From positions 1-63,897 of the forward strand of contig JAJZLS010000067.1 of assembly GCA_021803345.1 (NCBI GenBank): a stretch of 63,897 nucleotides of DNA. The letters are read 5' to 3'. The notes under the pieces were generated by a model. The model did no database searches, had not been told where the DNA came from, and worked only from the letters and a program-made list of their open reading frames with translations. This document shows positions 12,104 to 60,574 of the stretch, one piece after another. Position 1 is the first letter of the stretch, and each line of letters starts with the position of its first letter. The translations under genes were made by a program, and so were the position numbers. This stretch comes from Actinomycetes bacterium. GTDB taxonomy: Bacteria > Actinomycetota > Acidimicrobiia > Acidimicrobiales > Acidimicrobiaceae.

Positions 12104-12118
12104 TGGAATGTCTTTCCA
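12104..12118 (+). promoter_or_regulatory. Operator palindrome, regulon site 1
   Basis: TGGAATGTCTTTCCA, with arms TGGAA/TTCCA and a 5-base centre. It matches the recurrent 15-bp palindrome of this window. It lies 7 bp upstream of the -35 box of the deacetylase promoter, a position more typical of activation than repression. Confidence 0.6.
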
Positions 12119-12125
12119 CTTTCTA

Positions 12126-12155
12126 TTGACACGCTAAAGGTCATATAGCTAGAGT
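12126..12155 (+). promoter_or_regulatory. Promoter of the first deacetylase gene
   Basis: TTGACA (12126-12131), an 18-bp spacer and TAGAGT (12150-12155), the actinobacterial housekeeping type TAGRRT. Transcription would start near 12162, about 60 bases before the gene. Confidence 0.6.
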
Positions 12156-12222
12156 GTGCCCTCCAGCCTGGATTTTAATTGCTGGGTTTGTATGTAATTA
12201 AACCTATAGGAGGGTATGAGAA

Positions 12223-13113
12223 ATGGCTAAATGGCCTGATGGGAAGAGCATTGCATTTGGTTTGATGATTCCTTGGGAAGTGTGGCCGCCAGACTTGGGT
12301 ACCCCCAAGTCCAACCAGCGAAGCTCGCAGCATCCTGTTCCTACCGATGCCATCTATCCGAGGGACATGTGGGCAGTGTGGGATCATGAATACGCCGAGG
12401 CTCAGGGACTTAGACGTTTACTAACGATGTTTGATGATTACAATATTCGCGCTACTTTCGTAGCGAATGGTAAGCGGGTCGAAATGAGTCCGGAGCTTGC
12501 CAAATTGGCAAAAGCAGCCGGACACGATATGGGAAGTGAAAATTACGAACATGTCTATCCCATCATGATGACGCAAGAGGAAGAGCGCAAGTCGCTTGAG
12601 AACACAGTCTCGGCATTCAAATCGGTGCTTGGTGCAGCTCCTACTGGATATATTTCTCCGGGTCATCGACCCACGCCAAATACTTTCCCTCTGATATTTG
12701 AGTTGGGATATTCTTGGATGTCAGATTTCCAAGGGGATGACGTACCTTTCCGGGTGGAGGGTTCGGATCGCGATCTAGTTTGTATGCCTTATGCGCACGT
12801 TAGTGACTATCAGACCTATGCGACGGACGGTAGAACTCCCAGGGATATGCTCGAGATGGCCATCGATGAGTTTGACGTGCTAAGAAGGGAAGGATTGCGG
12901 GGAAGCCCCAAGATGATGGGGTTTGCAATTCATCCATTTTTATGCCATGGATTTCGGACAAGGGCAATAGAAAGATTGTTGGACCATGTTCTAGGGTGTC
13001 CCGATGTATGGTTCACTACCCGTACAGAAATTACCGACTGGGTTCGTAAAAACCCTCAGGAATTCGCGACCGTGTCGCTAGACAGCGTGACAAAGATGTT
13101 TCCTGTCACTTGA
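12223..13113 (+). CDS. Polysaccharide-deacetylase-family hydrolase, PuuE-like
   Basis: A 296-residue NodB-fold protein of the branch that includes PuuE allantoinase and related C-N hydrolases, rather than classical chitin deacetylases. It has FDDYNIRATFVANGKR, GHDMGSENYEH with a possible metal His, GYISPGHRPTPNT, and a late FAIHPFLCHGFRTR. There is no signal peptide, so it is cytoplasmic and its substrate is probably a small amide. A paralogue roughly 80 percent identical is encoded convergently at 14992-15882. A ribosome site (AGGAGGGTATGAGAA) precedes the ATG. Operator site 1 and a good promoter lie upstream. The exact substrate is unknown. Confidence 0.8.
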   Translation: MAKWPDGKSIAFGLMIPWEVWPPDLGTPKSNQRSSQHPVPTDAIYPRDMWAVWDHEYAEAQGLRRLLTMFDDYNIRATFVANGKRVEMSPELAKLAKAAGHDMGSENYEHVYPIMMTQEEERKSLENTVSAFKSVLGAAPTGYISPGHRPTPNTFPLIFELGYSWMSDFQGDDVPFRVEGSDRDLVCMPYAHVSDYQTYATDGRTPRDMLEMAIDEFDVLRREGLRGSPKMMGFAIHPFLCHGFRTRAIERLLDHVLGCPDVWFTTRTEITDWVRKNPQEFATVSLDSVTKMFPVT

Positions 13114-13241
13114 TCGGCGGCCAAAACAGTTTCTGAGCCGAGTTTACGACTCCAGGGTAATTGTGAACCTAGTTTATTGCACGCTTACCGGGTGATAACT
13201 CTGGTCGAGAATTGGGCCAATGTGCTTGGGCTTTCTCAATT

Positions 13242-14039
13242 TCAAGCCTCCCATGCAATTGGGCCACCTGAGCGTTGTGCCGCTTCTCCTGGTCCAATCG
13301 CGGGATCCCATTTGTTTGCGATAAATCGACGCGCAGTTATACCGTCGGACTGCCTTGAGGCGAGCCAGACAATTGGTGGACCCATCACCGCGGGAGGTGT
13401 CAACTGGTCGCGGGGGAGATCAGGTAGCTGTGGTATAAAACGGGTATCAGCTTGCCCACCAGGTATCAGAACGTTTACCGTGACTCCAGTACCTTCAAGA
13501 TCCCTTGCCATTACCGCAGCAAACGCTTCATTTCCGGCCTTGCTGGGTCCATAAGGTGCTTGACCGGACCGGGTCATGGTGTCAAGGCCGGTGGTGACGT
13601 TGACGATTCGTCCCCAACCCTGTTTCATCATATGGCCAACCGTAGCCCGTGAGAGAAGAAATGGTGCGATCATATGAAGGTCTACAAAGCGACGCACATC
13701 TGACCCATTCAACTCATAGAAGCGAATAGGGTTTTTGTAACGGTCTCCGGGGCGAATTGTGCTCAGACTTATCCCGGCATTATTTACAACCATATCTACA
13801 TGTCCGAATGAATTCAGGCACTTTTCCACTATTTGTGTGATTCCATTTTCATCGGTAACATCAGCGCAAATGCCTTCTATCAAGCCGTTTGCCTCATGAC
13901 AGATTTCCTGAATTTGATCACGGTCGATATCGACCACGAGAACGCCAGCGCCAGCTTCAACAAGAGCTAAAGCCATTGCGCGGCCGAGCCCGCGCGCACC
14001 TCCGGTAATAATTATTGCCGTACCATCTAAAATTCCCAA
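13242..14039 (-). CDS. Short-chain dehydrogenase/reductase
   Basis: A 265-residue Rossmann-fold oxidoreductase. The cofactor loop is TGGARGLG near the N-terminus; VVDID after beta 2 suggests NAD(H). Then come NNAGIS and the catalytic YGPSK (Tyr-x3-Lys). It should oxidise a hydroxyl or reduce a carbonyl of the imported compound. It is the last gene of the minus-strand operon that starts with the ABC transporter at 18838, separated from the next SDR by about 150 bp. It converges on the plus-strand deacetylase paralogue. Confidence 0.85.
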   Translation of the reverse strand: MGILDGTAIIITGGARGLGRAMALALVEAGAGVLVVDIDRDQIQEICHEANGLIEGICADVTDENGITQIVEKCLNSFGHVDMVVNNAGISLSTIRPGDRYKNPIRFYELNGSDVRRFVDLHMIAPFLLSRATVGHMMKQGWGRIVNVTTGLDTMTRSGQAPYGPSKAGNEAFAAVMARDLEGTGVTVNVLIPGGQADTRFIPQLPDLPRDQLTPPAVMGPPIVWLASRQSDGITARRFIANKWDPAIGPGEAAQRSGGPIAWEA

Positions 14040-14191
14040 GACCTACTCCTTTCTTGTGTTTGAAGTGGCAGGAGCTATGATTGATGTCCGAGGTTGACTA
14101 AGCAACACTTTTGCTGGTCATTAGTGGAAAACAACCCAAGAACAGCCAATCCTAAAATATTGCTATGCTGATTATCACCAAAATTCAGCTT

Positions 14192-14992
14192 TTAGTCGTG
14201 CGGCCCAATGAATGCAAGTTGGCCCCCGTCAACAACAAACGTTGCTCCAGTTACATAAGATGCAGCATTGGATGCTAAAAATACAATCACCCTGGCGATT
14301 TCAAGTGGACTCGCCATTCGGCCGAGAAGCGTCCGCTGCTCGGCTTCTGCTCGGTTGCTTCTTCCTGAGTCGAATGAACTTTGCCTTCTGGGGGTCAAGG
14401 TCGGACCAGGGCAAACACTGTTAGCACGGACTCCAGCAGATCCAACCTCCGTGGCTATTTGACGGGTCAAATTTATTATTCCAGCTTTGGATGAGCAGTA
14501 GCTGGTGTTGTTTTTGACTCCAACCAATCCGTAGGTGGATGCGATGTTTACAAAGCTGCCACGACCGCGTTCAACCAGAGGAAGAAATTCTCGGGTCATT
14601 AGGAATACGCTTGTAAGGTTTGTTGCCATAATGCGATTCCACTGTTCAAGACTGAGTTTCCTTACAGAAGTATTATCGTTGGTTCCTGCAACATTTATTA
14701 CAGCTGTTATCGAATCGTAGCTCCGCTCGATTTCTGCTTTCAGATTTGCGACGTCAGCTTCTGACGATACATCAGCAACGAAAGCTTTGGCATTTTCTCC
14801 GTAGATTGCACTGTTGCTTATATTGGCGAGAATTTCCTCATTAAAATCAACGGCGATGACCGTAGCTCCGAGATCGGTGAGTACTTCGCAGCACGCCTGA
14901 CCTATACCTGCGCCTGCACCGGTCACAATGACCGGTGCTCCATCAAATCGTAGCGCAGCTAAAGTTTCATTGTCTTCTTGTCGAGCGGTCAT
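14192..14992 (-). CDS. Short-chain dehydrogenase/reductase
   Basis: A 266-residue SDR with the TGAGAGIG cofactor loop, VDFN after beta 2 (NAD preference likely), NVAGTN in place of NNAG, and catalytic YCSSK. The C-terminus TFVVDGGQL is typical of classical SDRs. Its ATG overlaps the stop of the deacetylase gene upstream (TGATG), so the pair is coupled and probably acts on consecutive intermediates. It differs clearly from the next SDR downstream, so the two are not a recent duplication. Confidence 0.87.
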   Translation of the reverse strand: MTARQEDNETLAALRFDGAPVIVTGAGAGIGQACCEVLTDLGATVIAVDFNEEILANISNSAIYGENAKAFVADVSSEADVANLKAEIERSYDSITAVINVAGTNDNTSVRKLSLEQWNRIMATNLTSVFLMTREFLPLVERGRGSFVNIASTYGLVGVKNNTSYCSSKAGIINLTRQIATEVGSAGVRANSVCPGPTLTPRRQSSFDSGRSNRAEAEQRTLLGRMASPLEIARVIVFLASNAASYVTGATFVVDGGQLAFIGPHD

Positions 14993-15882
14993 CAGGTTGC
15001 CGGAAACATCTTGGCAACCTGCTCTTTCGAGACCGTTGCGAAGTCATTGGGATTTTCTCTAACCCACTGCGCGATTTCGCTTCGGGTTGCAACCCAGACA
15101 TCTGGACAAGCCGTAATATGGTCAAGCATAAGTTCCAGTACACGAGTCCGAAATCCGTGACAGATGAACGGGTGAATGGCAAACCCCATCATCTTTGGGC
15201 TTCCTCGCAGACCTTCTTTTCGAAGTACATCGAATTCGTCGATGGCCATCTGCAACAGCTCGCGTGGGGTCCTGCCATTCCCTGAGTAAGACTGGTAATC
15301 ACTTACGTGTGCATAAGGCATACAAATGAGATCTCGATCTCCGTCCTGCATTTTGAACGGCACGTCGTCTCCCTGAAAGTCGGCGTGCCAGGAATAACCG
15401 AGGTCAAATACCAAAGGTACGGTATTTGGTGTCGGCCGGTGACCCGGAGAAATATATCCAGTAGGAGCTGCCCCAAGCACCGATTTGAATGCCGAGACTG
15501 TGTTTTCAAGCGACTTGCGCTCTTCCTCCAGCGTCATCATGATCGGATAAGCGTGCTCATAATTTTCGCTACCCATATCATGTCCGGCAGACTGTGCTTC
15601 TTTTGCCAGTTCGGGACTTACCTCCACCCGCTTGCCGTTTGCCACGAAAGTAGTACGCACGTTGTAGTCATCGAACATCGTTAGTAAACGTTTTAGACCC
15701 TGAGCCTCAGCGTATTCATGGTCCCATACTGCCCACATGTCTCGAGCATAGAGAGCGTCTGACGGTACGGGACGCTGTGAACTCCGCTGATGAGATTTAG
15801 GCGTACCAATATCGGCGGGCCAGATCTCCCAGGGGATGATAAGTCCAAATGCTATGCTTTTCCCATCAGGCCATTTAGCCAT
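14992..15882 (-). CDS. Polysaccharide-deacetylase-family hydrolase, PuuE-like (paralogue 2)
   Basis: A 296-residue paralogue of the 12223-13113 product, with the same length, start MAKWPDGKS and landmarks (SENYEH, GYISPGHRPTPNT, FAIHPFICHGFRTR). An in-frame ATG at 15942 would add 20 residues. The shorter start is chosen because it matches the paralogue and has GGTGAAAG just upstream. The gene lies between the receptor lipoprotein gene and the coupled SDR in the ABC operon, so it probably hydrolyses the imported compound. The two copies form an imperfect inverted duplication around the SDR genes. Confidence 0.8.
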   Translation of the reverse strand: MAKWPDGKSIAFGLIIPWEIWPADIGTPKSHQRSSQRPVPSDALYARDMWAVWDHEYAEAQGLKRLLTMFDDYNVRTTFVANGKRVEVSPELAKEAQSAGHDMGSENYEHAYPIMMTLEEERKSLENTVSAFKSVLGAAPTGYISPGHRPTPNTVPLVFDLGYSWHADFQGDDVPFKMQDGDRDLICMPYAHVSDYQSYSGNGRTPRELLQMAIDEFDVLRKEGLRGSPKMMGFAIHPFICHGFRTRVLELMLDHITACPDVWVATRSEIAQWVRENPNDFATVSKEQVAKMFPAT

Positions 15883-15967
15883 TCTTTCACCACTCTTTCT
15901 GTTGATATATGTATGTTTATATTTGCCATCAAATGTTGGCATTGGTACTGCAGGAGATTTGAAGAAC

Positions 15968-17077
15968 CTAACCTAGAGCAGCGGTATTTATATATTGATT
16001 TGTCCAAACAACGCCTTGTTTTGCAGTGCTGCCACTTGGAATTGCACCTGTTTCGACGTTCCACTTAATTGCGTCGTTCCAGTCACTTTGGGTCGCAAGT
16101 CCATTTTTTGGAAACTGAGTTTCTTTTAGACTCGTCGTAAGTTCTGAAGCGGTAAATCCTGGAAATAAAGAGACAAGTACAGGGACGGCCTTGTTGGGAT
16201 GATCCCGCAGAAAGTTGTCAGCCATTGCTACTGCTGTGGCCACCCCCTTTACCACCGATGGATGGGATTTCGCATACGCTCGTGAGGCCAAGACGATGTC
16301 ATACACTTGTGATGCGCCAAGCGGCAGGTTACTAACTCCAACTAGAACTGAGCCCAAACCTTCGGCAGTTAGTTGAGCGGTTGAAGGAGGTGATGCAGCA
16401 AAGGCATCGATCAGCCCTTGTTTTATGGCCGCAGCCTCTGCAGATATACTGGTGAAAGAGATTTTGTGGAAGTTGGAGTAACTAAAGCCGCCATATTTGG
16501 CTGCCAATTTCCATACTGCTTTATCAGATGAGGAAAGTTCTCCAATGGTTGCACCCTTTAGACTGGCAAGCTTGGTGTCTGCACTTGCTGAACTTGGAAC
16601 AGGGTGGCTGGATAACCACTTAGAACTGACAAACATTTGAATAGTGTTACCAATATTGGTAGTGACAACTGATTCCAGAGGAAGACCCTTCGCATTCGCC
16701 AGAACTGCTGCAGTTGATGAGACTCCACTAAATTGGACAGTTCCTGCCGCCAATGCCGAGTCTGCGACACTGCTTCCTTGGACCACCTCGACTTTGGCGT
16801 TTATGCCTTCTTTTTTAAAGAACCCCTCTTTTTGAGCCACACCGACCGGGGCAAGGTCTAAAACATTTACTGCCAATGCGATGGTAGCAGGTGTAAGTGT
16901 TTTGGCACTTGAGCTCGAACTTGCTGAAGTGGTCTTGCTGGTAGATGATGCTGACGAGCTGCTGCTTCCACATGCGCTTAGCGTTAACACCGATAGAGCC
17001 ATGACTAGACTCGCCGCTCGAAAATGGCGTACGGATCTTTTGCGATCCGAAGATAACGAACTGAAATACAATGACAT
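15968..17077 (-). CDS. ABC substrate-binding lipoprotein, SsuA/NMT1 type
   Basis: A 369-residue receptor. A 20-residue charged N-terminus is followed by a hydrophobic core, lipobox LSAC (Cys36) and a long Ser-rich linker. The mature part shows AVNVLDLAPVGVAQKEGFF, KKEGINAKVEVVQG and ALAAGTVQFSGV, all typical of aliphatic sulfonate/NMT1 receptors. It would deliver its ligand to the permease encoded 50 bp upstream. It belongs to the operon 18838 to 13242. Confidence 0.88.
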   Translation of the reverse strand: MSLYFSSLSSDRKRSVRHFRAASLVMALSVLTLSACGSSSSSASSTSKTTSASSSSSAKTLTPATIALAVNVLDLAPVGVAQKEGFFKKEGINAKVEVVQGSSVADSALAAGTVQFSGVSSTAAVLANAKGLPLESVVTTNIGNTIQMFVSSKWLSSHPVPSSASADTKLASLKGATIGELSSSDKAVWKLAAKYGGFSYSNFHKISFTSISAEAAAIKQGLIDAFAASPPSTAQLTAEGLGSVLVGVSNLPLGASQVYDIVLASRAYAKSHPSVVKGVATAVAMADNFLRDHPNKAVPVLVSLFPGFTASELTTSLKETQFPKNGLATQSDWNDAIKWNVETGAIPSGSTAKQGVVWTNQYINTAALG

Positions 17078-17127
17078 TTATATCCCCCTTGGTTGTTTTA
17101 TTTATTGTTTTATTAATCTGCTGGCAC

Positions 17128-17970
17128 TCACTCGTCCTGATAGGTTCTCCATGGCATTACCCATCGCTCAAATAAACTGATGATCCCTGTGCCAACGATG
17201 ATCATCAGAACTAAAATTACAATTCCTGCGAATACACTTGCTGAATCGAAATTTTCGGATGAATTTCGAATGAAATAACCAACGCCTTTGTCTGCAGCTA
17301 TAAATTCTCCGACAATTACGCCAATCATTGCGAATGGAACTGCGGATCTAAGTCCTGTAATCAGAGGCGTGCTAATTTGCGGTAACACAACTTTTCTAAG
17401 TACCACCGACCTTCCTCCACCCATGAGCTTTACCACTTCGACAAGATCATTCGGCATCGAGCGGACACCTAGGTACGAGTTGTAAAACATTACAAAGAAG
17501 ACGGTCATGGAAGCTATAGCCACCTTGGAAGCCAAACCCAGTCCGAACCAGATTAGAAGAAGTGGCGCTAATGCAATTTTAGGTATACCGTTAATTACTG
17601 TTATTAGAGGTTCAAAGGTAGCTCCAGCTACTCTCCAGTAAGCCAGACCGACTCCAAAAATAACTCCAGAAACCACACCTAGTAGGTATCCAAGCGCCAG
17701 TTCTTCGGCAGTAGCACCGATGTTACGCCACATTGTCGCGGTAGAAAGCAGGCTAATCAACTTTTGAACTACATTGGAAGGGCTGCTGATGAGGTAATTC
17801 GGAAATACTCTGTTGTCCGCCAATTGCCAAGCGCCCAATATGACTATTACAGAAACAATTTGTGCGGCGCGAATAGATCTTGATGTTTTAGGCCGCCTTG
17901 GGATTCCGGTTCCCCGGCTCGATGAGCCTCTTCCTATGAGAATGGTTTCGCCGTCAGTCGCAGCTGTCAA
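17128..17970 (-). CDS. ABC transporter permease, SsuC/TauC type
   Basis: A 280-residue membrane subunit with about six hydrophobic segments and the EAA-type loop PNDLVEVVKLMGGGRSVVLR followed by KVVLPQ. The open frame runs up to 18177, deep in the ATPase gene. The start is taken as TTG 17970 because AGGAGG (17978-17983) stands 7 bases before it. That Shine-Dalgarno sequence encodes the last two Arg of the ATPase, whose TGA ends 4 bases before the start. The two genes should therefore be tightly coupled. Confidence 0.85.
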   Translation of the reverse strand: MTAATDGETILIGRGSSSRGTGIPRRPKTSRSIRAAQIVSVIVILGAWQLADNRVFPNYLISSPSNVVQKLISLLSTATMWRNIGATAEELALGYLLGVVSGVIFGVGLAYWRVAGATFEPLITVINGIPKIALAPLLLIWFGLGLASKVAIASMTVFFVMFYNSYLGVRSMPNDLVEVVKLMGGGRSVVLRKVVLPQISTPLITGLRSAVPFAMIGVIVGEFIAADKGVGYFIRNSSENFDSASVFAGIVILVLMIIVGTGIISLFERWVMPWRTYQDE

Positions 17971-17974
17971 GTTG

Positions 17975-18838
17975 TCACCTCCTATTTGATTCTCTGGATT
18001 TCGCCCGAGAGTTGACATTCTCAAATTCAACGTCTTTTGGTTGAAATCTTGTAGAGTCAGGTTTTTCGTCACCGATCTCTGATCTAAATATTTCCCAAAG
18101 TTCCCGGTGAATCTTGGCAAACTCTGGGAGTTCGGCGACGTGAAATACGTCTCTAGGCCTAGATATCGGAACAGCAAGTTCTGCTTTAATCCGCCCCGGT
18201 CTCCGTGTCATAACTACAACACGGTCTGCTAAGGTAAGTGCTTCATTGAGGTCGTGGGTGACAAAGATTACCGTTTTTTGATAATTGCTCCATAAGTCCA
18301 ACAGAATTTGCTGGAGCACAGTTCGGGTAATCGCGTCCACTGCCGCAAACGGTTCGTCCATAAGTACTACTTCAGGGTCGTATACCAAAGTTCGGGCGAT
18401 TGAACACCGCTTCTGCATCCCCCCAGAGAGCTGAGATGGGTAAACTGACTCAAATCCTTCCAATCCGACCAGGCTTATCCATTCTTCAACTCTGGCATCC
18501 CTTTCTTTACGAGGAACGTGGCGTATGTCAAGCGGCAGCCTGATGTTGTCGATCACGGACATCCAGGGGAGTAGCCGAGAGTCCTGTGTCACATATCCAA
18601 CCGCGGTATTGATCCCTTCAACTTGATTTGAGCGAAAATAAATGTTTCCGCTCGAAGGGGGTTTAAGACCTGCCAGAAGACTTAGAAGTGTGCTCTTGCC
18701 GCATCCACTGGGTCCTACTATGGCGCAAAACTCCTTCTCCTCGACGTCAAAGGTGACGTCGCTCAGTGCTTGTACCGTCAGTCCGGTTCGTCGCATCTCA
18801 AAAGTTTGGGAAACGTGTTCAAATCTTACTATAGGCAT
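17975..18838 (-). CDS. ABC transporter ATPase, SsuB/TauB type
   Basis: A 287-residue ATPase with Walker A GPSGCGKST, signature LSGGMQKRCSIART, Walker B VVLMDEPFAAVD and H-loop VTHDLNEAL. It is the first gene of the minus-strand operon ATPase-permease-receptor-deacetylase-SDR-SDR. The proposed promoter lies about 400 bp upstream, with an operator palindrome behind it. The family imports sulfonates, nitrate-like anions or aromatic acids; the ligand here is unknown. Confidence 0.9.
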   Translation of the reverse strand: MPIVRFEHVSQTFEMRRTGLTVQALSDVTFDVEEKEFCAIVGPSGCGKSTLLSLLAGLKPPSSGNIYFRSNQVEGINTAVGYVTQDSRLLPWMSVIDNIRLPLDIRHVPRKERDARVEEWISLVGLEGFESVYPSQLSGGMQKRCSIARTLVYDPEVVLMDEPFAAVDAITRTVLQQILLDLWSNYQKTVIFVTHDLNEALTLADRVVVMTRRPGRIKAELAVPISRPRDVFHVAELPEFAKIHRELWEIFRSEIGDEKPDSTRFQPKDVEFENVNSRAKSRESNRR

Positions 18839-19254: not shown

Positions 19255-19283
19255 AATATATTCATATGGTTATGCCATGTCAA
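19255..19283 (-). promoter_or_regulatory. Promoter of the (-) ABC/deacetylase/SDR operon
   Basis: On the minus strand TTGACA (19283-19278), a 17-bp spacer and TATATT (19260-19255), near consensus. Confidence 0.6.
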
Positions 19284-19301: not shown

Positions 19302-19316
19302 TGGAACAATATTCCA
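19302..19316. promoter_or_regulatory. Operator palindrome, regulon site 2
   Basis: TGGAACAATATTCCA. It is centred about 61 bp upstream of the predicted minus-strand transcription start, behind the -35 box. This is an activator-like position. It also lies upstream of the plus-strand redoxin gene. Confidence 0.6.
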
Positions 19317-25361: not shown

Positions 25362-25390
25362 TTGACTCAGTATCAACTGAAGAGTATACA
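25362..25390 (+). promoter_or_regulatory. Promoter of the Rbs-Hyu operon
   Basis: TTGACT (25362-25367), 17-bp spacer, TATACA (25385-25390), immediately followed by the operator. Transcripts would have a leader of about 480 bases before the receptor gene. Confidence 0.65.
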
Positions 25391-25405
25391 TGGAACATTG
25401 TTCCA
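25391..25405 (+). promoter_or_regulatory. Operator palindrome, regulon site 3
   Basis: TGGAACATTGTTCCA, a perfect 7+1+7 palindrome directly downstream of the -10 box. It covers the expected start of transcription, a classical repressor position. Confidence 0.75.
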
Positions 25406-25805: not shown

Positions 25806-25889
25806 ATGAATAGCCAGGATGGCAAGATGAACACAGCAATTGAAATAGTCAGTTGCATGAGGCAATCAAACGGGGGAGTCATTGAATGA
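25806..25889 (+). CDS. 27-residue leader ORF coupled to receptor gene
   Basis: A short ORF, MNSQDGKMNTAIEIVSCMRQ followed by seven more residues. It has a strong Shine-Dalgarno sequence (GCGGAGGGGG, about 4 bases before ATG). Its TGA overlaps the ATG of the following lipoprotein gene (ATGA). The receptor's own ribosome site (GGGGGAG) lies inside it. It may be a translational coupling peptide that sets receptor synthesis. I know no homologue. Confidence 0.5.
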   Translation: MNSQDGKMNTAIEIVSCMRQSNGGVIE

Positions 25890-29756: not shown

Positions 29757-29854
29757 ATTTCACTCGAGTGTAACCGAGGTTCTCAAGCAGTGGCAGCAAA
29801 ACCGTCTTTGGCTAACTAAAGCGATGGCTTTGCATCGATTTGAGAGGCATTGGG

Positions 29855-31978: not shown

Positions 31979-32008
31979 ATCGATGCGAAGTCAAAGAATG
32001 GAGAAGCC

Positions 32009-38516: not shown

Positions 38517-38583
38517 GCCGATCGGTTTAAATTCAGAAAAATCTGTGATTGTATGGCAATAAATTAGAAAGGAAAGTTACAAT

Positions 38584-40879: not shown

Positions 40880-40882
40880 TTC

Positions 40883-43265: not shown

Positions 43266-43281
43266 TTATTTTCTCCGTACT

Positions 43282-45486: not shown

Positions 45487-45513
45487 TAAAATCTCCTTGG
45501 TGAAAGTCCTTGA

Positions 45514-47604: not shown

Positions 47605-47617
47605 GTATCCCCCTTTT

Positions 47618-47632
47618 CGGAACAATGTTCCA
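47618..47632 (-). promoter_or_regulatory. Operator palindrome, regulon site 4
   Basis: CGGAACAATGTTCCA, abutting the -10 box on its downstream side and ending 13 bases before the HyuA copy 3 start codon. Binding here would block transcription start of the operon that also seems to contain the iclR-type gene. Confidence 0.75.
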
Positions 47633-47661
47633 TTTATACTCTTATGACACAGATTCGTCAA
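47633..47661 (-). promoter_or_regulatory. Promoter of the Hyu-CoA-transferase-Ltp-IclR operon
   Basis: On the minus strand TTGACG (47661-47656), a 17-bp spacer and TATAAA (47638-47633). Confidence 0.7.
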
Positions 47662-49181: not shown

Positions 49182-49250
49182 GTAAATCTTCTCCTTGTAT
49201 TTTCTACGGATTGCTACCCAAGTTGAGTTCAGCAACTTCTTTCGAATGCG

Positions 49251-50513
49251 TCATTTAGCGACGGTTGTACCGTCTTTACCGGAGACAATGGAAAATGATT
49301 TTCCATTCCACTGGCCTATCCAGACGTCGCTTCCACTTGTTCCCACATGATTTTGTGCGCTGATATTGTAAAGACCGAACGATTCAGGGACGTTCTTTAC
49401 CTTTGTTTGAAGGTAATTTTTCAGCTGAGGTGCAGTGGCTTTAACACCGAGGGCTTTTAATGCCCGTACCATGATCATGAATGCATCTACCGGAAGGCCC
49501 CAGCCAGTATTTGGTTGACCTCCAGCTGCCGTGACTATTTTGTCAAAGACCGAAAGATAAGACTGAAGTGGGGTTGGCAGCGACGACGGAGAAAAATAGA
49601 GTGGCCCAAGTGGGAGGTATAAGTGTGTCGGGAGAATAGATGATAAGGCAGTTAGTTCCGATTGCAATGCATTCCCTGAAGTCGCGAAAGTGGGTATATT
49701 TGACATTCCAAGCGACGACATAGCCCGAAGAACTGTACCGAATGGAGTCCCGGTAGTTGATATAAAGATTGCCTGAGGGTTCGTTGCTTTGATAGCCGAC
49801 ATCTGCGGTACAACGTTTAGAGCTGTGGGATCGTAAGTCTGATGTGAGATCACGGTTACACCGCTGCCACTTGGGCTTTTTAGCGCAGCTTCCAGCTCGT
49901 TATATCCGTCGAGGCCACTGGCATCTGACGAGTTTATGATTGCGATGCGGTTATACCCGCTTACCTTCATGAAATTGACTATAGATCCCTCAAGATATTT
50001 CGTCGAAATTCCTGCCGCAAATACGTAACTATGTGGCTTGGGATTTGCCACTGGAGACAGGTCGTATATCACCGGTCCTGTCGAACCGGCCAGTGCATCT
50101 ACAGCATTGTCAACTGGGCTTATGCTTCCATTGAGCAGAAAAGGAACCCCAGAATGGATTAGATTTGTTGCCTGGGATACAGCGGTAGCCGGGTTGCTTT
50201 GATTATTTACGATATCTAGAGTTATCGGGTGACCGTCAATCCCCCCAGAGTGATTGACGTATGCAGCAAAGGCGGTTAGTGCATGGCTAGCAATACTCCC
50301 GAGCGTAGCTCCTGGACCGGTAAGTGACAATATTGCGTGTACCACATATGGCGATTGTGACGAAGCTGCTGTCGTAGTGGATGTACTTGCCGCTGGCTTT
50401 GCTGCAGAGCTTGACGTACCACAGCCCGCCAGAATCAAAGCACAAGCGAGAAAGGCGATTTTCAGCTTACGTCCCGACCAATATTCCCCCGAACGCCATA
50501 GTCGCAATGACAT
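49251..50513 (-). CDS. LivK-type ABC receptor lipoprotein (orphan)
   Basis: A 420-residue type I periplasmic-binding protein of the branched-chain amino acid/amide class. Lipobox LAGC (Cys31) is followed by an Ala/Ser/Thr linker. Fold blocks are VVHAILSLTGPGATLGS, FAAYVNHSGGIDGHPITL and DNAVDALAGSTGPVIYDL. No Liv-type permease or ATPase gene is near, so it must share a transporter encoded elsewhere or act as a sensor. The ATG at 50513 is chosen for the AGGGGGGG before it; an in-frame start at 50618 would hide the signal peptide. Confidence 0.87.
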   Translation of the reverse strand: MSLRLWRSGEYWSGRKLKIAFLACALILAGCGTSSSAAKPAASTSTTTAASSQSPYVVHAILSLTGPGATLGSIASHALTAFAAYVNHSGGIDGHPITLDIVNNQSNPATAVSQATNLIHSGVPFLLNGSISPVDNAVDALAGSTGPVIYDLSPVANPKPHSYVFAAGISTKYLEGSIVNFMKVSGYNRIAIINSSDASGLDGYNELEAALKSPSGSGVTVISHQTYDPTALNVVPQMSAIKATNPQAIFISTTGTPFGTVLRAMSSLGMSNIPTFATSGNALQSELTALSSILPTHLYLPLGPLYFSPSSLPTPLQSYLSVFDKIVTAAGGQPNTGWGLPVDAFMIMVRALKALGVKATAPQLKNYLQTKVKNVPESFGLYNISAQNHVGTSGSDVWIGQWNGKSFSIVSGKDGTTVAK

Positions 50514-50663
50514 ATTGGCACCCCCCCCTAAATATGGCAGTGTTAAAACAGCCATGTAGTGTTGAGAAAATCTAGACGATTCCAGCAACGACTCAATGGC
50601 TTGGTGACGAATTGTCACTTGTCCAAAAATCTCTGTTCTTCGAACGCCGATTACCAGGAGTTA

Positions 50664-50678
50664 TGGAACAATGTTCCA
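50664..50678 (-). promoter_or_regulatory. Operator palindrome, regulon site 5
   Basis: TGGAACAATGTTCCA, a perfect palindrome at the downstream edge of the -10 box of the LivK-hydrolase promoter. Confidence 0.75.
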
Positions 50679-50706
50679 TTTTACTATAGTGTCTTATAGC
50701 AGTCAA
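50678..50706 (-). promoter_or_regulatory. Promoter of the LivK-hydrolase operon
   Basis: On the minus strand TTGACT (50706-50701), a 17-bp spacer and TAAAAT (50683-50678). The last base is shared with the operator. Confidence 0.6.
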
Positions 50707-53799: not shown

Positions 53800-53828
53800 T
53801 TGACATAGCCACTGATAAGATATAAGCT
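53800..53828 (+). promoter_or_regulatory. Promoter of the third SsuABC-type operon
   Basis: TTGACA (53800-53805) with TAAGCT (53823-53828) at 17 bp. TATAAG at 53821-53826 is an alternative with a 15-bp spacer. Confidence 0.5.
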
Positions 53829-53841: not shown

Positions 53842-53856
53842 TGGAATGATGTTCCA
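53842..53856 (+). promoter_or_regulatory. Operator palindrome, regulon site 6
   Basis: TGGAATGATGTTCCA, with arms TGGAA/TTCCA, centred about 14 bp downstream of the predicted start of transcription. Confidence 0.65.
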
Positions 53857-53920: not shown

Positions 53921-54793
53921 GTGGATGACGTAAAGCTAGCGGCAGGGGATGATGTCCGGGGTTATAACAATCCTGAGAGGCGAGATTTACATCCTAACGC
54001 GACCCGAAGAAACGCCAACTCCAAGACCTCTTTGAGCAGAATGTCATCCCTGACAATATCGACTTTAGCAATAGTGGTCGGCATCGTCCTGTGGCAGATT
54101 ATTGGTCAGTTTTTTGTAGGAAATTCTCTTTTTTTGGCAACTCCTTTACAGACTCTAAACGGGGTCAGGGAGATGTGGGACTCGGGTGCACTACAAGAGG
54201 ATTTGATTGTTAGTGGTGAAGAATTTATATTTGGATTTTTAATTGGATCCATTGCTGGGATTCTGATTGGCGCGTTTATCGCCAAAAATCGCATAGCCAA
54301 GAGAATCTTTACCCCGTATATCTCTGGATTTTATGCCACACCAATAATTGCTCTAGCTCCAATAGTGATTCTCTGGTTTGGACTAGGTGTATGGTCGAAA
54401 GTCGTTGTGGTAATAAGCCTGGTTATTTTTCCTCAAATAATAAGTACTGAGGCGGGAATCAGAACCACAGATGAGACCTTGAGAGAGGTGGCCCGTTCTT
54501 ACGGCGCTTCTTCTGTGGAGGTATTTCGGAAAGTTGAAATGTGGTGGAGCCTTCCTTATATTCTCGCTGGGCTTAGGTTAGGGGTGGGACGAGCTCTAAT
54601 CGGGGTGGTAGTGGGGGAGTTATTCGGTGCTAAAGCTGGCTTAGGTTTTGCAATCAATAACGCCCAGGCTGAATTTAATATGCCTGAACTCTTTGCAGGC
54701 GTAGCGATCTTCGCGGTTTCGGGAATTGTATTTACCTATCTTCTTACGGTACTCGAAAGAGCTATAACTCCATGGGTGACTAACAGACTTTGA
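53921..54793 (+). CDS. ABC transporter permease, SsuC/TauC type
   Basis: A 290-residue membrane subunit. A polar N-terminus of about 45 residues is followed by roughly six hydrophobic segments. The EAA-type loop is DETLREVARSYGASSVEVFR followed by KVEMWWSLP. It starts with GTG after GGATGAGGA and is the first gene of the operon permease-ATPase-receptor-M24-SDR. The gene order differs from the other two Ssu-type sets in the window, so they are not simple copies of one another. Confidence 0.88.
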   Translation: MDDVKLAAGDDVRGYNNPERRDLHPNATRRNANSKTSLSRMSSLTISTLAIVVGIVLWQIIGQFFVGNSLFLATPLQTLNGVREMWDSGALQEDLIVSGEEFIFGFLIGSIAGILIGAFIAKNRIAKRIFTPYISGFYATPIIALAPIVILWFGLGVWSKVVVVISLVIFPQIISTEAGIRTTDETLREVARSYGASSVEVFRKVEMWWSLPYILAGLRLGVGRALIGVVVGELFGAKAGLGFAINNAQAEFNMPELFAGVAIFAVSGIVFTYLLTVLERAITPWVTNRL

Positions 54794-54815
54794 AAAAATG
54801 AGAAAGCATGCTTAG

Positions 54816-55580
54816 GTGAAGAACGTATCTGTAGAGTACATAACCAAATTTTTTGGCGAGATCCAAGTTTTGTCGGATGTCAGTTTCGTTGCCCAGGAAG
54901 GACAATTCGTAACCATCGTTGGTCCGAGTGGATGTGGGAAAACAACCTTACTGAGGATAATTGACGGTCTTGAAAACCCCGATTATGGCCAAGTCAGAAT
55001 TGGGGAAAGAATTGTATCAGGCCCGGCAAAAGAATGTGCTTTCGTATTTCAGGCTGACTCCCTGATGCCGTGGCGTACTGTCTATGACAACGCGAAGCTG
55101 GGCATGGAGTTACGGGGGTTGGATATCCAGGAATACAAGGATCGCCTAATGGAACTTTTGCGTCTTGTGGGGTTGGCTGGTTTTGAGAATCACTATCCCA
55201 GGCAACTGTCAGGGGGAATGCGACAAAGGGTGAATCTAGCTCGTGCACTTGCAGTTGATCCGGATGTCCTACTTATGGATGAGCCTTTTGCTGCACTTGA
55301 TGCGCAGACTAGAGAGATCATGCAGACTGAGTTGCTCAGAATCTGGTCTACTCAGCGAAAGACTGTTGTTTTTATTACTCACCAATTAGACGAGGCAGTA
55401 TATCTGGCTGATCGTGTACTGGTAATGGGCAGAAAGCCTGGGGTTATCGCTGATGACATCGATATACCGTTCGACCGGCCTAGGGAATTGTCCCTCAAGC
55501 GAACTGAAGATTTTGGGAAATTGGTGGAAAGGATCTGGGGAACCATTGAAGGAGCTATTCGAGAAACAGGGGGAATTTAA
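54816..55580 (+). CDS. ABC transporter ATPase, SsuB/TauB type
   Basis: A 254-residue ATPase with Walker A GPSGCGKTT, Q-loop VFQADSLMPW, signature LSGGMRQRVNLARA, Walker B VLLMDEPFAALD and H-loop ITHQLDEAV. It begins with GTG 22 bases after the permease stop. It powers the importer of this operon. Confidence 0.9.
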   Translation: MKNVSVEYITKFFGEIQVLSDVSFVAQEGQFVTIVGPSGCGKTTLLRIIDGLENPDYGQVRIGERIVSGPAKECAFVFQADSLMPWRTVYDNAKLGMELRGLDIQEYKDRLMELLRLVGLAGFENHYPRQLSGGMRQRVNLARALAVDPDVLLMDEPFAALDAQTREIMQTELLRIWSTQRKTVVFITHQLDEAVYLADRVLVMGRKPGVIADDIDIPFDRPRELSLKRTEDFGKLVERIWGTIEGAIRETGGI

Positions 55581-55668
55581 GTCTTCAGATGGCTTTCTCA
55601 GGCTTGTGAAAAACGTTCACGAGCAAAGGACGGGCTCTTGAAGCCTAGTTTCTAGAAAGGGGATAATT

Positions 55669-56748
55669 GTGACGTCTAGTTTTTTTGGGGGGAAACGTCG
55701 CAGGACGCTTCCGGTATCAGTCGCAAGCCTTATGGTTCTTGGTGTATTGCTTGCAGCATGCGGAAGCAGCTCTTCAAGCAGTAGCACAACCACCACTGCC
55801 GCAAGTTCAAGCACAACTAGCAGCGCTGCTGCTCCAAATTATGGGACAGTAACTTTCTCGCAAGTCGGACCTGATGCCGGCAAATGGCCAATCTATGCAG
55901 CAATTTCAGAAGGTTTCTTCAAGAAAGAGGGTATTTCGATATCTATTTCCACGAGTGGTAGCAGTCCAGGGGGAGTTCAAGCTGTGCTTGCTCATTCAGT
56001 GGATATCGCTGAAGTCGGTGATACTGATGCAATTTCTGCTGCAGCCGGTGGCGGATCTATATCGCTTGTGGCGGGAGAGGAAAATGCGCCGCCCTATGTA
56101 ATTAATGTCCCAAAGAGCATCACTTCTATTGCACAGCTGAAGGGCAAGACAGTTTCGGTTGCCGCACCCACCAACATCACCAAGCTATATTGGAACGCAA
56201 TTGCACAGGCCAACGGGCTTAGTCCAACAGCAGTTACCTACCAGTACTCGCCAACGACCGGTGACAGGTTTGCCGCTCTCAAAGGCGGTGTAGTGCAGGC
56301 CGCAATTTTGCTTCCGCCGTTCAGTTTTGAAGCTGAAGCAGCGGGATTCCCGGCTATTGCATCAGCAGCCAAGTATCTGCCGCTTCCATTTACTGCGCTT
56401 GCAGCAAGTCCAAGTTGGATTAGTAGCAACAGTAATAAGTTTCAAGCATTCCTAAAGGGATACCTCATGGGGATCAAGTGGCTGTACGATCCGGCAAATA
56501 AGGCGGCTGCAATAGCACTGCTTGAAAAGGAAACCAATGCCACTGCATCGGCATCGACTCAATCTTACGACTTCTTCGTCAATCAGTTGAAAGCTTTTCC
56601 AACCAATGGGCAACTCCCGACATCGGAAATGGCTAAGGAAGCTCAGGCCATGGTTGGCCTGGGTGCGTTCAAAAAAGCGCCTCCTACGAGCAGTTTCATG
56701 ACAAACACTTATATCAAGAAGGCAGCTGCGTCATTGGGATTGAGTTAA
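55669..56748 (+). CDS. ABC substrate-binding lipoprotein, SsuA/NMT1 type
   Basis: A 359-residue receptor with three Arg before the hydrophobic core, lipobox LAAC (Cys31) and a Ser/Thr linker. The mature fold has PIYAAISEGFFKKEGISISI, then VLAHSVDIAEVGDTDAIS and LKGKTVSVAAPTNITKLYW. GTG start with GAAAGGGG in front. A large stem-loop follows the stop codon and may stabilise the upstream message, so that the receptor is made in excess. Confidence 0.88.
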   Translation: MTSSFFGGKRRRTLPVSVASLMVLGVLLAACGSSSSSSSTTTTAASSSTTSSAAAPNYGTVTFSQVGPDAGKWPIYAAISEGFFKKEGISISISTSGSSPGGVQAVLAHSVDIAEVGDTDAISAAAGGGSISLVAGEENAPPYVINVPKSITSIAQLKGKTVSVAAPTNITKLYWNAIAQANGLSPTAVTYQYSPTTGDRFAALKGGVVQAAILLPPFSFEAEAAGFPAIASAAKYLPLPFTALAASPSWISSNSNKFQAFLKGYLMGIKWLYDPANKAAAIALLEKETNATASASTQSYDFFVNQLKAFPTNGQLPTSEMAKEAQAMVGLGAFKKAPPTSSFMTNTYIKKAAASLGLS

Positions 56749-56752
56749 TTCT

Positions 56753-56844
56753 CTGGCATCCTTGCCACTCGGGAACAGCGAGTGAGTGGCTCGTTGCAGT
56801 TTGCCCCTCCCAACAAGGTGAATATGGGTGGCAAGGATAGCCAG
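56753..56844 (+). promoter_or_regulatory. Large stem-loop after the receptor gene
   Basis: CTGGCATCCTTGCCAC (56753-56768) pairs with 56828-56844 along all 16 bases with one bulged base. Inside, CACTCG (56766-56771) can form a smaller hairpin with CGAGTG (56779-56784). There is no U-run, so an mRNA-stabilising or processing element is more likely than a terminator. Confidence 0.6.
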
Positions 56845-56892
56845 ACACGTGGTTTTAATCTCCTGAAAACCTAAATGAAAGAGAGGTTATTA

Positions 56893-58131
56893 ATGAAATA
56901 TTCAGAGCAACTGCGTTACGGTGCGAATATTGCCGACTGGCGTCAGGGAATTGACGTCGAGCGTCTTCGCAGGGAACGGCAAGAGAAAGCGCGCAAAGGG
57001 TTACGCGACCATGGGGTAGCTGCATTTTTGGCTACCAGGTCCGACAACACCAGATACCTCGTTGGTCTGCGTGGCCCAGAATTTCAGCCGGCTTTATGGT
57101 ACACCTTGTTTCCAGCTGAGAGCGAGCCGATTGTTTTCCATCATGCTGGCTGGTTGCCGATATACCCCCAGGAGGCTCCATGGGTAAAAGAGTGGCGGCT
57201 GGCTCGGGCTTGGCTTAGTCGCGGGCCGGGTGAGGAGGCATCCAGGTTAGAAGCTGAGCGATTTGCCAGGGAAGTGAAACAGGAATTGGTGGCCAAAGGT
57301 ATTGAGAACGAGAAACTGGCTCTTTTAGGTTTTGATGGACTGGCTCAGCAAGCGTTGAGAGATGTCGGGGTAACTGTAGTAGATGGCTGGCCAATCATGC
57401 TTGATATTACAAAAACTAAAACAGTAGACGAGATAAGTTGCCTAAAGATGGCATTCGATGCAACAGACGCTGGTTGGTATCGGACTCAGGAATTGCTCAA
57501 GCCGGGCTCAATCGATGTGGACGTATCGGCCGAGGCAATGCTGGCGGCACACAAGGCCGGGGCAGAGGAAACCCCAGCTGGTCACCTAAGAAGTGGCATA
57601 ATATCATTTGACAGGGCATTTGCAGGAACTGGACGGATTATCAACTATGGAGATCTGGTGTACGGGTCTTATTGCCAGGTCAAGTACATGGGCTATAACA
57701 CCTGCTACTACCGGACTTTTTCGGTAGGCAAGGAACCGGATGCCAAGGTAAAGTCTTGGTACAGCGAGCTGGTTGACAGGTTAAATAACGTGATAGAGGC
57801 GATCAAGCCAGGGGGATCCACTGCGGAAGCCGCAGCTCATTTTGCACCCGCTTCAAAATGGGGTTACAAGGAAGAGGCGGAGCTGTTGACGTTGGAAATT
57901 GGGCATGGGATTGGTCTTTACAACTACGGCTATCCCATAGTCAACAGGCAATGGTCGCTTGATCACCCCCAGGAGTTCGAAGTTGGAATGACTTTGGCAG
58001 TAGAAGGTCGCGAAGGTGTGCCAGGTGAAGGTGGCGTCCGATTAGAAGATGCCGTAGTAATTACAGAAAATGGAGCCGAGTTGCTTGACCGTTGGCCTAG
58101 GGACGAGATTCTGGTATCTCCTCGTGGTTAG
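56893..58131 (+). CDS. M24-fold (aminopeptidase P/creatinase-like) protein with lost Asp ligands, copy 2
   Basis: A 412-residue pita-bread protein. The N-domain has FLATRSDNTRYLVGLRGPEF. In the M24 domain the metal-binding Asp pair is absent: the block LVYGSYCQVKYMGYNTCYYR has Ser and Thr/Cys in their places. His stays in EIGHGIGLYNYG, and both Glu stay in LAVEGREG and GVRLEDAVVIT. Other M24 non-peptidases are creatinase and the DMSP lyase DddP, so a lyase or C-N hydrolase acting on the imported compound is plausible. ATG 56893 is preferred for GAGAGG just before it; ATG 56875 is also in frame. Confidence 0.8.
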   Translation: MKYSEQLRYGANIADWRQGIDVERLRRERQEKARKGLRDHGVAAFLATRSDNTRYLVGLRGPEFQPALWYTLFPAESEPIVFHHAGWLPIYPQEAPWVKEWRLARAWLSRGPGEEASRLEAERFAREVKQELVAKGIENEKLALLGFDGLAQQALRDVGVTVVDGWPIMLDITKTKTVDEISCLKMAFDATDAGWYRTQELLKPGSIDVDVSAEAMLAAHKAGAEETPAGHLRSGIISFDRAFAGTGRIINYGDLVYGSYCQVKYMGYNTCYYRTFSVGKEPDAKVKSWYSELVDRLNNVIEAIKPGGSTAEAAAHFAPASKWGYKEEAELLTLEIGHGIGLYNYGYPIVNRQWSLDHPQEFEVGMTLAVEGREGVPGEGGVRLEDAVVITENGAELLDRWPRDEILVSPRG

Positions 58132-58147
58132 GCGAGGAGAGGAAGCA

Positions 58148-58921
58148 ATGGATGCTGAGATGATCACCGATCCAGAACCGCTTGATGTTTCCCTTGCTGG
58201 GAAGGTCGCCTTTGTAGCTGGTGGAGCAGGGGCTATTGGATCGGCAATAGCCCGTTCACTTTCACTCAGGGGAGCCAAGATTGTCATAGCAGACGTTTCT
58301 CCTCAGTTGGATGAAGTCTGGAAAAAAATAGAGAATGAAACGGGTTTTGGTGGCCAAGCATTAAGAGTAGATCTGACACAGGAAGCTGAAATCGAATCGG
58401 CTTTCGAAAAAACCGTTAGTGAATTTGGACAACTCGACATTATGGTTCACGCTGCTGGAATCTATCATCGCAAACCATTGCTTGAATTGACTTCCGATGA
58501 GTGGGATTTAACTCAAAACATCAATATGCGTAGTTTTTTTCTCTGCACCAAATACGCGGTAAGTAAAATGATGACTACGGGGGATGGGCGGATTATCGGG
58601 ATAACATCTGGAATGGGAGTCGCCGGGAAGCCTCGCAGCGCCGCCTATTGCGCATCGAAAGCAGCAATGATCGTTTTTGCTCAGTCGGTTGCTCTGGAAC
58701 TTGCAAGGACTTCAATAACGATTAATCTGATCGGACCAGGTATCACTGATACCCCCTTGATGCGTAATGCCAATACCGAGGACGAAATTCAGGCTTCGTT
58801 GTCGCGCGATGGTCGCCCTTTGGGTTCTCCGGAGAACGTTGTCGGCCCGGTACTTTATCTCCTCAGCGAGACCACAAAATCGGTAACCGGAACCACCGTT
58901 TGGATGCGGTCACCAATTTAG
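58148..58921 (+). CDS. Short-chain dehydrogenase/reductase
   Basis: A 257-residue SDR with cofactor loop AGGAGAIG, IADVS after beta 2 (NAD preference), HAAGIY and catalytic YCASK. The start is ATG 58148, with GGAGAGGAAG in front; the open frame begins 78 bases earlier inside the M24 gene. It is the last clear enzyme of the operon that starts at 53921 and probably oxidises the product of the M24 enzyme. Confidence 0.86.
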   Translation: MDAEMITDPEPLDVSLAGKVAFVAGGAGAIGSAIARSLSLRGAKIVIADVSPQLDEVWKKIENETGFGGQALRVDLTQEAEIESAFEKTVSEFGQLDIMVHAAGIYHRKPLLELTSDEWDLTQNINMRSFFLCTKYAVSKMMTTGDGRIIGITSGMGVAGKPRSAAYCASKAAMIVFAQSVALELARTSITINLIGPGITDTPLMRNANTEDEIQASLSRDGRPLGSPENVVGPVLYLLSETTKSVTGTTVWMRSPI

Positions 58922-58934
58922 ATCAGGTCCTCAG

Positions 58935-59099
58935 ATGGGTTTGAAAGTTGGCGAGGAAGATATGTTACAAAGGTATTCGAATGGCCTATTTGAAGATTGG
59001 ACTGCGTGGCAGGATAGTGACGAACCAGGAGTTTTTGAAAAGTTTAAATCGGCCACCCAAATCCCCCAAGGCGGGCCTTGCCTTATGCAGTCAATATGA
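58935..59099 (+). CDS. Small hypothetical ORF, 54 residues
   Basis: ATG 58935 opens 13 bases after the SDR stop. The product begins MGLKVGEEDMLQRYSNGLFE and ends GGPCLMQSI. The composition is protein-like (acidic, Trp-rich middle: DWTAWQDSDEPGVFEKF), and the position suggests a last operon gene or a gene cut short by the inverted repeats at its end. No homologue is recognised and the ribosome site is weak. Confidence 0.4.
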   Translation: MGLKVGEEDMLQRYSNGLFEDWTAWQDSDEPGVFEKFKSATQIPQGGPCLMQSI

Positions 59100-59172
59100 C
59101 GCTTTCTAAATTGGCTAGCAGTAGCAGTATAGGCAAGGCCCGCATCCTCTAATTGCAGAATTTGAGGATGCG
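59071..59172. repeat. Two linked hairpins sharing bases
   Basis: GCGGGCCTTGCC (59071-59082) is perfectly complementary to GGCAAGGCCCGC (59132-59143), with 49 bases between. CGCATCCTC (59141-59149) pairs with GAGGATGCG (59164-59172). The two stems overlap by CGC. This may be a transcription end for the operon, a structured RNA or the remnant of a small mobile element. Confidence 0.55.
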
Positions 59173-59481
59173 GAGCCAAACCCGACATTAGGCCTATGGT
59201 CCAGGTATCAAAAGGAAACAAGCATCAATTTAAGTATAACTAGGAAGCGGAATTCGAAGATTTGAGCCCGACTAGAACCTGACCTGCTGTTTTTGTTTAC
59301 AGTCAGCACGGTTTAGTTGTGAACTTGTGACCATGTGGATCAGAAGTTTCAAGGTTGGGTCGTCTGAAATAAGTGACTGGTCACCCTATGGGATGAGCTC
59401 GAATATGTTAGGTAATTTCTGCGTAATGGCAGGCATTCATGTACCCGTCAATCAATCCTCATGAATGTCTGCCAAATAACG
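59173..59481. other. Intergenic, no gene recognised
   Basis: AT-rich spacer between the hairpin cluster and the end of the cupin gene. No coding pattern or regulatory palindrome is seen. Confidence 0.45.
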
Positions 59482-60033
59482 CTAGATATTCTTGCCGATT
59501 TGTTTGAGTTCTTCAAGGAAGGTTCCGGGTCGATACTCATGGTTGAACGTCGGCTCGTCTCCTTTATAAGTTATGTTCATTTCTCCCAAGTATTCCTGTA
59601 TTGGGAGCGGCTTGATAGCTATTACCATTCCGGGTTCATCCGAGGTTACAAAATGCTGATGCCATGCTCCTGCGGGGATGTACATCGTGTCGCCAGGTTC
59701 CCAATCTATTCTTTCCTCGTCGATAAAACTGTGTCCCCGTCCTCGTAAGACAATGATGATTGCTTCGTTGTGCTTGTGGGTAACGGAATGCGTATTTGGC
59801 GGATAGATATGCCAGTCGACCTCAATAATACGGTTATCAAATCCAAGGTCTTGTGAGACCATTCCTCCAAGCCAGGTTCCGTTTTTCTCTTCATAATCAA
59901 GGGTAATTTCGGAACCTTTAATAAACCGTCGCCCTTGCTTGCGGCGCAACTGGTCTGCTTCACGCCTTTCTTTACGTTTCTGGAAGAGCGTTGACTTTCC
60001 TTCCATCCAGCTTTCATTTCCTTCAGTTACCAT
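59482..60033 (-). CDS. Cupin-domain protein
   Basis: A 183-residue single-domain cupin. A basic N-terminal helix rich in Lys, Arg and Glu is followed by the barrel, with motif 1 HKHNEAIIIVLRGRGHS and motif 2 PAGAWHQH. The two His of motif 1, the Glu and the last His can bind a metal. Such proteins may be dioxygenases, isomerases or sensors. ATG 60033 is chosen for AAAGGAG upstream; an in-frame start at 60051 lacks it. Its expected promoter, with an operator palindrome, lies about 540 bp upstream. Confidence 0.8.
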   Translation of the reverse strand: MVTEGNESWMEGKSTLFQKRKERREADQLRRKQGRRFIKGSEITLDYEEKNGTWLGGMVSQDLGFDNRIIEVDWHIYPPNTHSVTHKHNEAIIIVLRGRGHSFIDEERIDWEPGDTMYIPAGAWHQHFVTSDEPGMVIAIKPLPIQEYLGEMNITYKGDEPTFNHEYRPGTFLEELKQIGKNI

Positions 60034-60559
60034 CGGTGGCTCCTTTCCCAAGGCCTATTTTTTGAGTTGACATTTGTTGTAGGGCAGTCGTGTTGTAGGA
60101 CAGCGGTTGGGTTTTAGCTTCAGTTTGTTGGCCTCGGACTCCCTTGCAGTTGCGATTGCGGTCAACCGATGTGGACCGGCGGTTCGGCCGGTCAGTCCTA
60201 CTTGTTAGTGGTTTCACCAGATTTGTCTCGAGTTTCAAGAGTCGTGACTTCTATTTTCATCTAAAGTTGAACAATTTGTTCAAAGAGTATTCACAGTCCG
60301 CCCAAATCCCACCATATTACAATTTTGGATGGCTTGAGATCCAGACCGTGGAGCTGCGAGCTATGTTGGGACTCGATCGGCTGCCACAATAGGTCAAAAT
60401 AAAGGCGTGGTTGAGTCGATTTTTGCTGAAAAGATGCAGTGAAGTTTCAGAGAGGATCTGTGAAGAATTTTGGCCAGTGTTAGAAATCGATTCTTGGTTT
60501 ACATCAGCGAGGTCTGTAAGACAACTAGTGTTCAATCGTTAGCCACCTAAAGTTTTAGT
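60034..60559 (-). other. Long leader of the cupin gene, with a GC hairpin
   Basis: About 500 bases between the operator and the cupin. GACCGGC (60174-60180) pairs with GCCGGTC (60187-60193) over a 6-base loop. A TTG-started 72-residue frame (60535-60317) lacks protein character, and I do not call it. Confidence 0.4.
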
Positions 60560-60574
60560 CGGAACAATGTTCCA
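60560..60574 (-). promoter_or_regulatory. Operator palindrome, regulon site 7
   Basis: CGGAACAATGTTCCA, the same 15 bases as site 4, again abutting the downstream side of a TATAAA box. Confidence 0.75.

Follow-up and report, generated by a model that had tools for sequence, protein, structure and literature searches.

A predicted local IclR-family regulon of transport and catabolic operons in an Acidimicrobiia-type actinobacterium

The window, meaning the whole stretch of 63,897 nucleotides (64 kb) analysed here, carries a group of transport and catabolic genes. On the reverse strand, positions 13242 to 18838 encode an ABC ATPase, a permease, an NMT1-type binding protein, a PuuE-like deacetylase and two SDRs. 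The forward strand from 25886 to 39333 encodes an ABC transporter (binding protein, permease and double ATPase), two hyuA/hyuB pairs and an SDR. A leftward operon follows, in which genes for HyuA, HyuB, a CoA-transferase III, a thiolase and an OB/zinc-ribbon protein (40475 to 47604) lie in conserved order before a gene for an IclR-family regulator (39598 to 40401, reverse strand). Further right lie an alpha/beta hydrolase and an ABC substrate-binding protein of the Peripla_BP_6 type (47997 to 50618, reverse strand), then an ABC permease, an ATPase, an NMT1/SsuA-type binding protein, an M24 family protein and an SDR (53921 to 58921, forward strand), and a cupin protein (59482 to 60051, reverse strand). 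The cluster holds three hyuA/hyuB pairs, two at 29840-38516 on the forward strand and one at 43282-47604 on the reverse strand. A group II intron reverse transcriptase/maturase gene lies close to the contig's left end (589-1896, forward strand), and 3062-4681 on the forward strand encodes a Fic/DOC domain protein with a short AbiEi-like match.

The hyuA/hyuB products matched acetophenone and acetone carboxylases, caprolactamase and 5-oxoprolinase, with likeness to the carboxylases and caprolactamase over most of their length, and all NCBIfam matches fell below the equivalog cut-offs. Assignment of the iclR-operon HyuA as acetophenone carboxylase or caprolactamase was rejected (370.5 bits against a cut-off of 1500, and 474.8 bits against 1000), and HyuB reached 234.8 of 1500 bits. 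At its end, the HyuB of this operon carries a domain like acetone carboxylase gamma. Because of this domain and the presence of CoA-transferase and thiolase genes in the operon, we favour a pathway in which an imported ketone would undergo ATP-driven carboxylation to a beta-keto acid, followed by CoA transfer and thiolysis. Alternatively, the pathway would open a lactam or cyclic imide.

A sequence-only reading of this DNA had proposed seven copies of one 15-bp palindrome, spread over about 48 kb and each standing in an intergenic region beside a good promoter. All seven sequences were present at their positions, and all seven lay outside the 44 ORFs taken as genes (84% of the window); the site at 47618 is intergenic only with the hyuA start at the ATG at 47604, as the longest ORF call (45514-47661, TTG start) would contain it. 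Six sites, from 19302 to 60574, share the stricter pattern YGGAAYNNNRTTCCR, and these mark the starts of the operons in a 41-kb group. The seventh, at 12104 (TGGAATGTCTTTCCA), has a single good half and fails YGGAAYNNNRTTCCR. Since four of the five exact TGGAAYNNNNTTCCA sites in the genome that fail the refined pattern lie outside the window, the 12104 site was indistinguishable from background and was dropped. It precedes a TTGACA by 8 nt, which differs from the spacing at 19302 by roughly one turn of the helix and keeps a small doubt about its membership. A LexA-type box, GAAC-N4-GTTC, was considered and set aside; the palindromes have N3 spacing.

The refined pattern was strongly enriched in the window. 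Allowing up to one mismatch, TGGAANNNNNTTCCA matched the window 11 times, where 100 shuffles averaged 3.24 matches and never exceeded 7. YGGAAYNNNRTTCCR matched it 6 times; in 300 first-order Markov sequences of the window's dinucleotide composition the average was 0.06 and the highest count 2. In the genome searched (2,649,445 bases, 2.65 Mb, in 90 contigs), YGGAAYNNNRTTCCR had 8 matches, 6 of them in this contig, and its reversed control pattern had 2. From the rate outside the window, 0.05 matches would be expected within it (Poisson P for at least 6, 2e-11). The two outside copies, C29:68017 and C69:36158, were rejected as operators; both lie within ORFs, one of 743 aa and the other of 540 aa, which we take to be argS, and a good promoter was absent at the fixed positions. 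A looser search for the core GGAACANTGTTCC with one mismatch was less clean, yielding 9 sites in the genome (C21:32858, C52:13592 and C57:7148 among them) versus 6 for the reversed control, and the regulon claim therefore depends on the strict form.

The retained operators occupy three positions relative to predicted promoters. The operator at 25391..25405 (TGGAACATTGTTCCA) follows a rightward TTGACT-N17-TATACA promoter (25362..25390, forward strand) and covers the predicted transcription start of the 25886-39333 unit. On the reverse strand, CGGAACAATGTTCCA at 47618..47632 adjoins a TTGACG-N17-TATAAA promoter (47633..47661) and covers the predicted start of the hyuA-to-iclR operon, and the same sequence at 60560..60574 adjoins TTGACT-N17-TATAAA (60575..60603) and covers the predicted start of a unit that reads leftward in the direction of the cupin gene, about 500 nt off. 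At 50664..50678 (TGGAACAATGTTCCA), which precedes the hydrolase and substrate-binding protein genes, the leftward -10 box of a TTGACT-N17-TAAAAT promoter (50678..50706, reverse strand) ends at the operator edge. At these four sites, TTGAC[TG]-N17-TA boxes are followed after 0 to 1 nt by the 13-bp core, which, with the -10 box placed at -12 to -7, falls at about -6 to +8; the four operators therefore cover the transcription start. Only 12 TTGAC-N18-TA strings exist in the window on both strands, and 4 of the 12 end at operators.

The promoters of the other two sites share the TTGAC-N18-TA form by sequence. The core of the operator at 53842..53856 (TGGAATGATGTTCCA) lies 14 nt behind the -10 box of a forward TTGACA-N17-TAAGCT promoter (53800..53828), upstream of the permease operon. 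For the operator at 19302..19316 (TGGAACAATATTCCA), a TTGACA-N17-TATATT promoter (19255..19283, reverse strand) lies 19 nt beyond the operator core and points leftward to the 13242-18838 genes; relative to this promoter, the operator is centred near -61. A good promoter thus accompanies all six retained sites, as had been proposed, except that at 19302 it lies downstream of the site. The six operators mark units of ABC transporters and catabolic enzymes and, at 60560, of a cupin protein. This gene content agrees with the proposed single physiological program.

The product of 39598-40401 belongs to the IclR family, with matches to PF01614 (E 5.7e-35, 120.9 bits, cut-off 24) and PF09339 (E 5.9e-11, 42.4 bits, cut-off 22). 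By NCBIfam cut-offs it is an ortholog of none of the named members compared: it scored 92.2 bits against a cut-off of 380 for the E. coli IclR ortholog model (NF008601), 130 of 350 for BhcR, 108.8 of 275 for KdgR, 78.1 of 406 for AllR and 111.2 of 284.75 for PcaR/PcaU/PobR. Of the 11 IclR-family genes in the genome, it alone lies on a contig that has one of the eight refined sites. No refined site was found in the fetched flanks (about 1.5 kb per side or less) of any of the 11, the window's gene included because its operator lies 7 kb upstream; the flanks do not tell the genes apart. Pfam scans of the submitted window ORFs (a few ORFs were covered by NCBIfam only) detected no other transcription factor.

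To place these observations among relatives, 10 genomes of the genus were compared, the window's included. An ortholog of the window iclR was found in 7 of the 10 (75-100% identity), and the best matches in the other three reached 29-31%. The exact core GGAACANTGTTCC was present in all seven genomes with the ortholog (18 places) and in none of the three without it (Fisher P 0.008, among related genomes, with one G004 set near-identical to the window's). The reversed control of the core was found 0 times in all ten. The three genomes without the ortholog are 96% (G003), 85% (G006) and 69% (G008) complete, and the core places in G002 and G005, two each, include sites at contig ends. Four of the five core sites of G004 lie in the near-identical set, beside a second version of the module at 77%, and this genome may be a mixed bin. 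The M24 gene of the module followed the same pattern, with 82-86% identity in the five ortholog-bearing genomes searched (G004 left out) and at best about 28% in the three without, from which this marker indicates that the entire module is missing; co-occurrence therefore concerns the whole module, and iclR is not singled out. The proposed link between the regulon and IclR survives as a prediction, as the gene shares its contig with the sites and its ortholog tracks the exact core.

The architecture of the iclR operon was conserved. The order hyuA-hyuB-CoA transferase-thiolase-OB-iclR, preceded by an operator, was complete in G000, G001, G004 (two copies) and G007; in G002, G005 and G009 contig ends cut the operon, and the visible parts agree. 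In the window, iclR stands last in the operon under the 47618 site, and the suggestion of autoregulation stands. In the record of G004:C88 (L130), hyuA was matched as two pieces with a 2-nt overlap (13454-15599), which suggests a frameshift in the record. When the seven hyuA promoters were aligned, 19 unbroken columns were invariant through the operator, as were TTGAC and the greater part of the -10 box, whereas the remaining upstream DNA had diverged; the 47618 operator itself is invariant in the 7 genus genomes. The recognition helix is likewise invariant across the seven IclR sequences. Our own alignment reading against 1mkm gives its residues as L52, A53, V54, T56 and H58, none of which is a predictive one; Suvorova and Gelfand (2021, PMC8222616) give Glu29, Lys33 and Leu35 as the specificity residues of IclR-family group 2. 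For this helix, contact predictions based on the literature are uninformative.

Promoter geometry was also maintained at the other operators. In six of six versions of the permease operon (G000, G001, G002, the second copy of G004, G007 and G009; the G005 contig begins inside the operon), the spacing from the -10 box to the operator is 14 nt, and the operator centres vary. The 19302-type ABC unit recurs in G009 with a site near -60, another operator sequence and the same boxes at 18 nt. At G001:C130 and G004:C245, a TTGACA-N17-TATGCT promoter is followed after 12 nt by an operator core; the former site precedes a gene resembling the Amdase of the window (23% identity) and the latter an SDR (35% to one of the window's SDRs). 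G001:C33 (L128, 11592-11837) holds a second copy of the hyuA promoter-operator before an ABC transporter operon, with a stretch resembling the start of hyuA (49% over 41 residues), and this promoter-operator seems to have been copied.

This form of palindrome does not belong to the window's IclR alone. YGGAAYNNNRTTCCR was present in 44 of 61 genomes; among the matches listed, the exact core occurred outside the genus in G023, G027, G031 and G036, all without the ortholog. G012, of the same family and another genus, had 20 YGGAAYNNNRTTCCR sites on many contigs, mostly TGGAATCATGTTCCA or its complement, which represent either another regulon or a repeated element. Nine outside loci were fetched, seven by an IclR match and a palindrome on one contig and two (G027 and G031) for TGGAACAATGTTCCG; they are a chosen set, with the same-contig pairs G012:C42, G018:C75, G052:C107, G001:C175 and more left out. 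In four of the nine (G055 with two sites, G017, G023 and G036:C135, the last judged by the coordinates of the IclR match and palindrome), the palindrome lies about 150 nt or less before an IclR-family gene, and in three (G018, G028 and G036:C313) it lies about 7.4 kb before an IclR-family gene adjoining an ABC transporter. No homologs of window genes were found in the fetched loci of G027 and G031. At G055:C12 (L230), two GGAAY-N3-RTTCC palindromes, at 6927 and 6989 and 62 nt apart, stand directly before an IclR-family gene whose product is 30% identical to the window's.

The operators resemble a published motif. Suvorova and Gelfand (2021, PMC8222616) give the group 2 IclR-family consensus as TGRAACAN1-2TGTTYCA, which the window operator TGGAACA-N-TGTTCCA fits: 25391 and 50664 match it in full, 47618 and 60560 match except for the outer C, and 19302 and 53842 deviate in one half. 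According to the same paper, an IclR-family protein as a rule controls, besides its own gene, one or two operons next to it, and the window system is likewise predicted to control the operon of the regulator together with transport and catabolic operons nearby. It differs in having more units than this rule gives, three promoter positions and an Acidimicrobiia-type lineage. The sequence-only reading had drawn a parallel to E. coli IclR, the repressor of the acetate operon, which has the protein family and GGAA/TTCC arms in common with the window system. However, the window arms are TGGAACA rather than TGGAAAT and the gene content differs, and the GGAACA/TGTTCC arms fit the group 2 consensus better than the TGGAAATNATTTCCA of E. 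coli IclR. No published description of this regulon was recognised among the matches listed in literature searches.

The sites, their near-confinement to one contig, their promoter geometry, their conservation and their co-occurrence with the gene are direct observations, and from them we infer binding by the 39598-40401 protein, repression, an inducer and a pathway. It is highly probable that this IclR-family protein binds the six operators and controls the units, and that a metabolite releases it for their joint expression. A dimer would bind each 15-bp site. At 25391, 47618, 50664 and 60560 the bound protein would cover the transcription start and exclude RNA polymerase; at 53842 it would sit at about +9 to +21 and block there; and at 19302, near -61, its effect may be activation or something else. 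The protein would be released by a metabolite of the imported compound, so that transporters, hydantoinase/carboxylase-type enzymes, CoA-transferase, thiolase and IclR itself would be made together. A more detailed proposal, that the three fixed positions (at the start, 14 nt past the -10 box, or around -61) reflect repression of most units and activation of the 19302 unit, with a promoter-operator cassette copied from operon to operon during rearrangement of the cluster, is possible but doubtful.

The regulon might be real and yet be read by another protein, either one of the ten other IclR-family members or one from a different family whose gene lies elsewhere. The number of IclR-family genes in the genome speaks for this, as do similar palindromes that other genera have 50-150 nt upstream of distant IclR-family genes, which indicate that several members may read the form. 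We consider it unlikely, since only the window's IclR gene lies on a contig with any refined site, its ortholog agrees with exact-core presence in 10 of 10 genus genomes, and the Pfam scans of submitted window ORFs gave no second transcription factor. That the palindromes are RNA hairpins or transcript ends instead of DNA operators is very improbable: GGAAC-N3-GTTCC can fold and a terminator-like scan flagged two sites, but each class has its own position (the start, roughly +9 to +21, or around -61), and a hairpin would therefore not be wholly transcribed in most units. Chance is probably the true explanation for 12104, and the excess of one-mismatch cores is small; for the six retained sites, it is scarcely credible given their count in the window against random sequence, the scarcity of the refined form genome-wide, the fixed promoter geometry and the conservation in relatives.

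Collectively, the best reading is a local, autoregulated regulon of ABC transporters and hydantoinase/carboxylase-type catabolism in an Acidimicrobiia-type actinobacterium, controlled by the IclR-family protein of 39598-40401. Because its operator is that of the group 2 IclR-family consensus, and control of the own gene with adjacent operons is typical according to PMC8222616, it would be a large but ordinary local regulon and a new example of a well-known form of bacterial gene control. The analysis proposes a regulator, operators and target operons for a little-studied actinobacterial lineage. If the operons run as drawn, about 25 transport and catabolic genes would be joined in one program whose substrate can be sought, and the operators would serve as a simple reporter in the search for the inducer of hydantoinase/carboxylase-type pathways.
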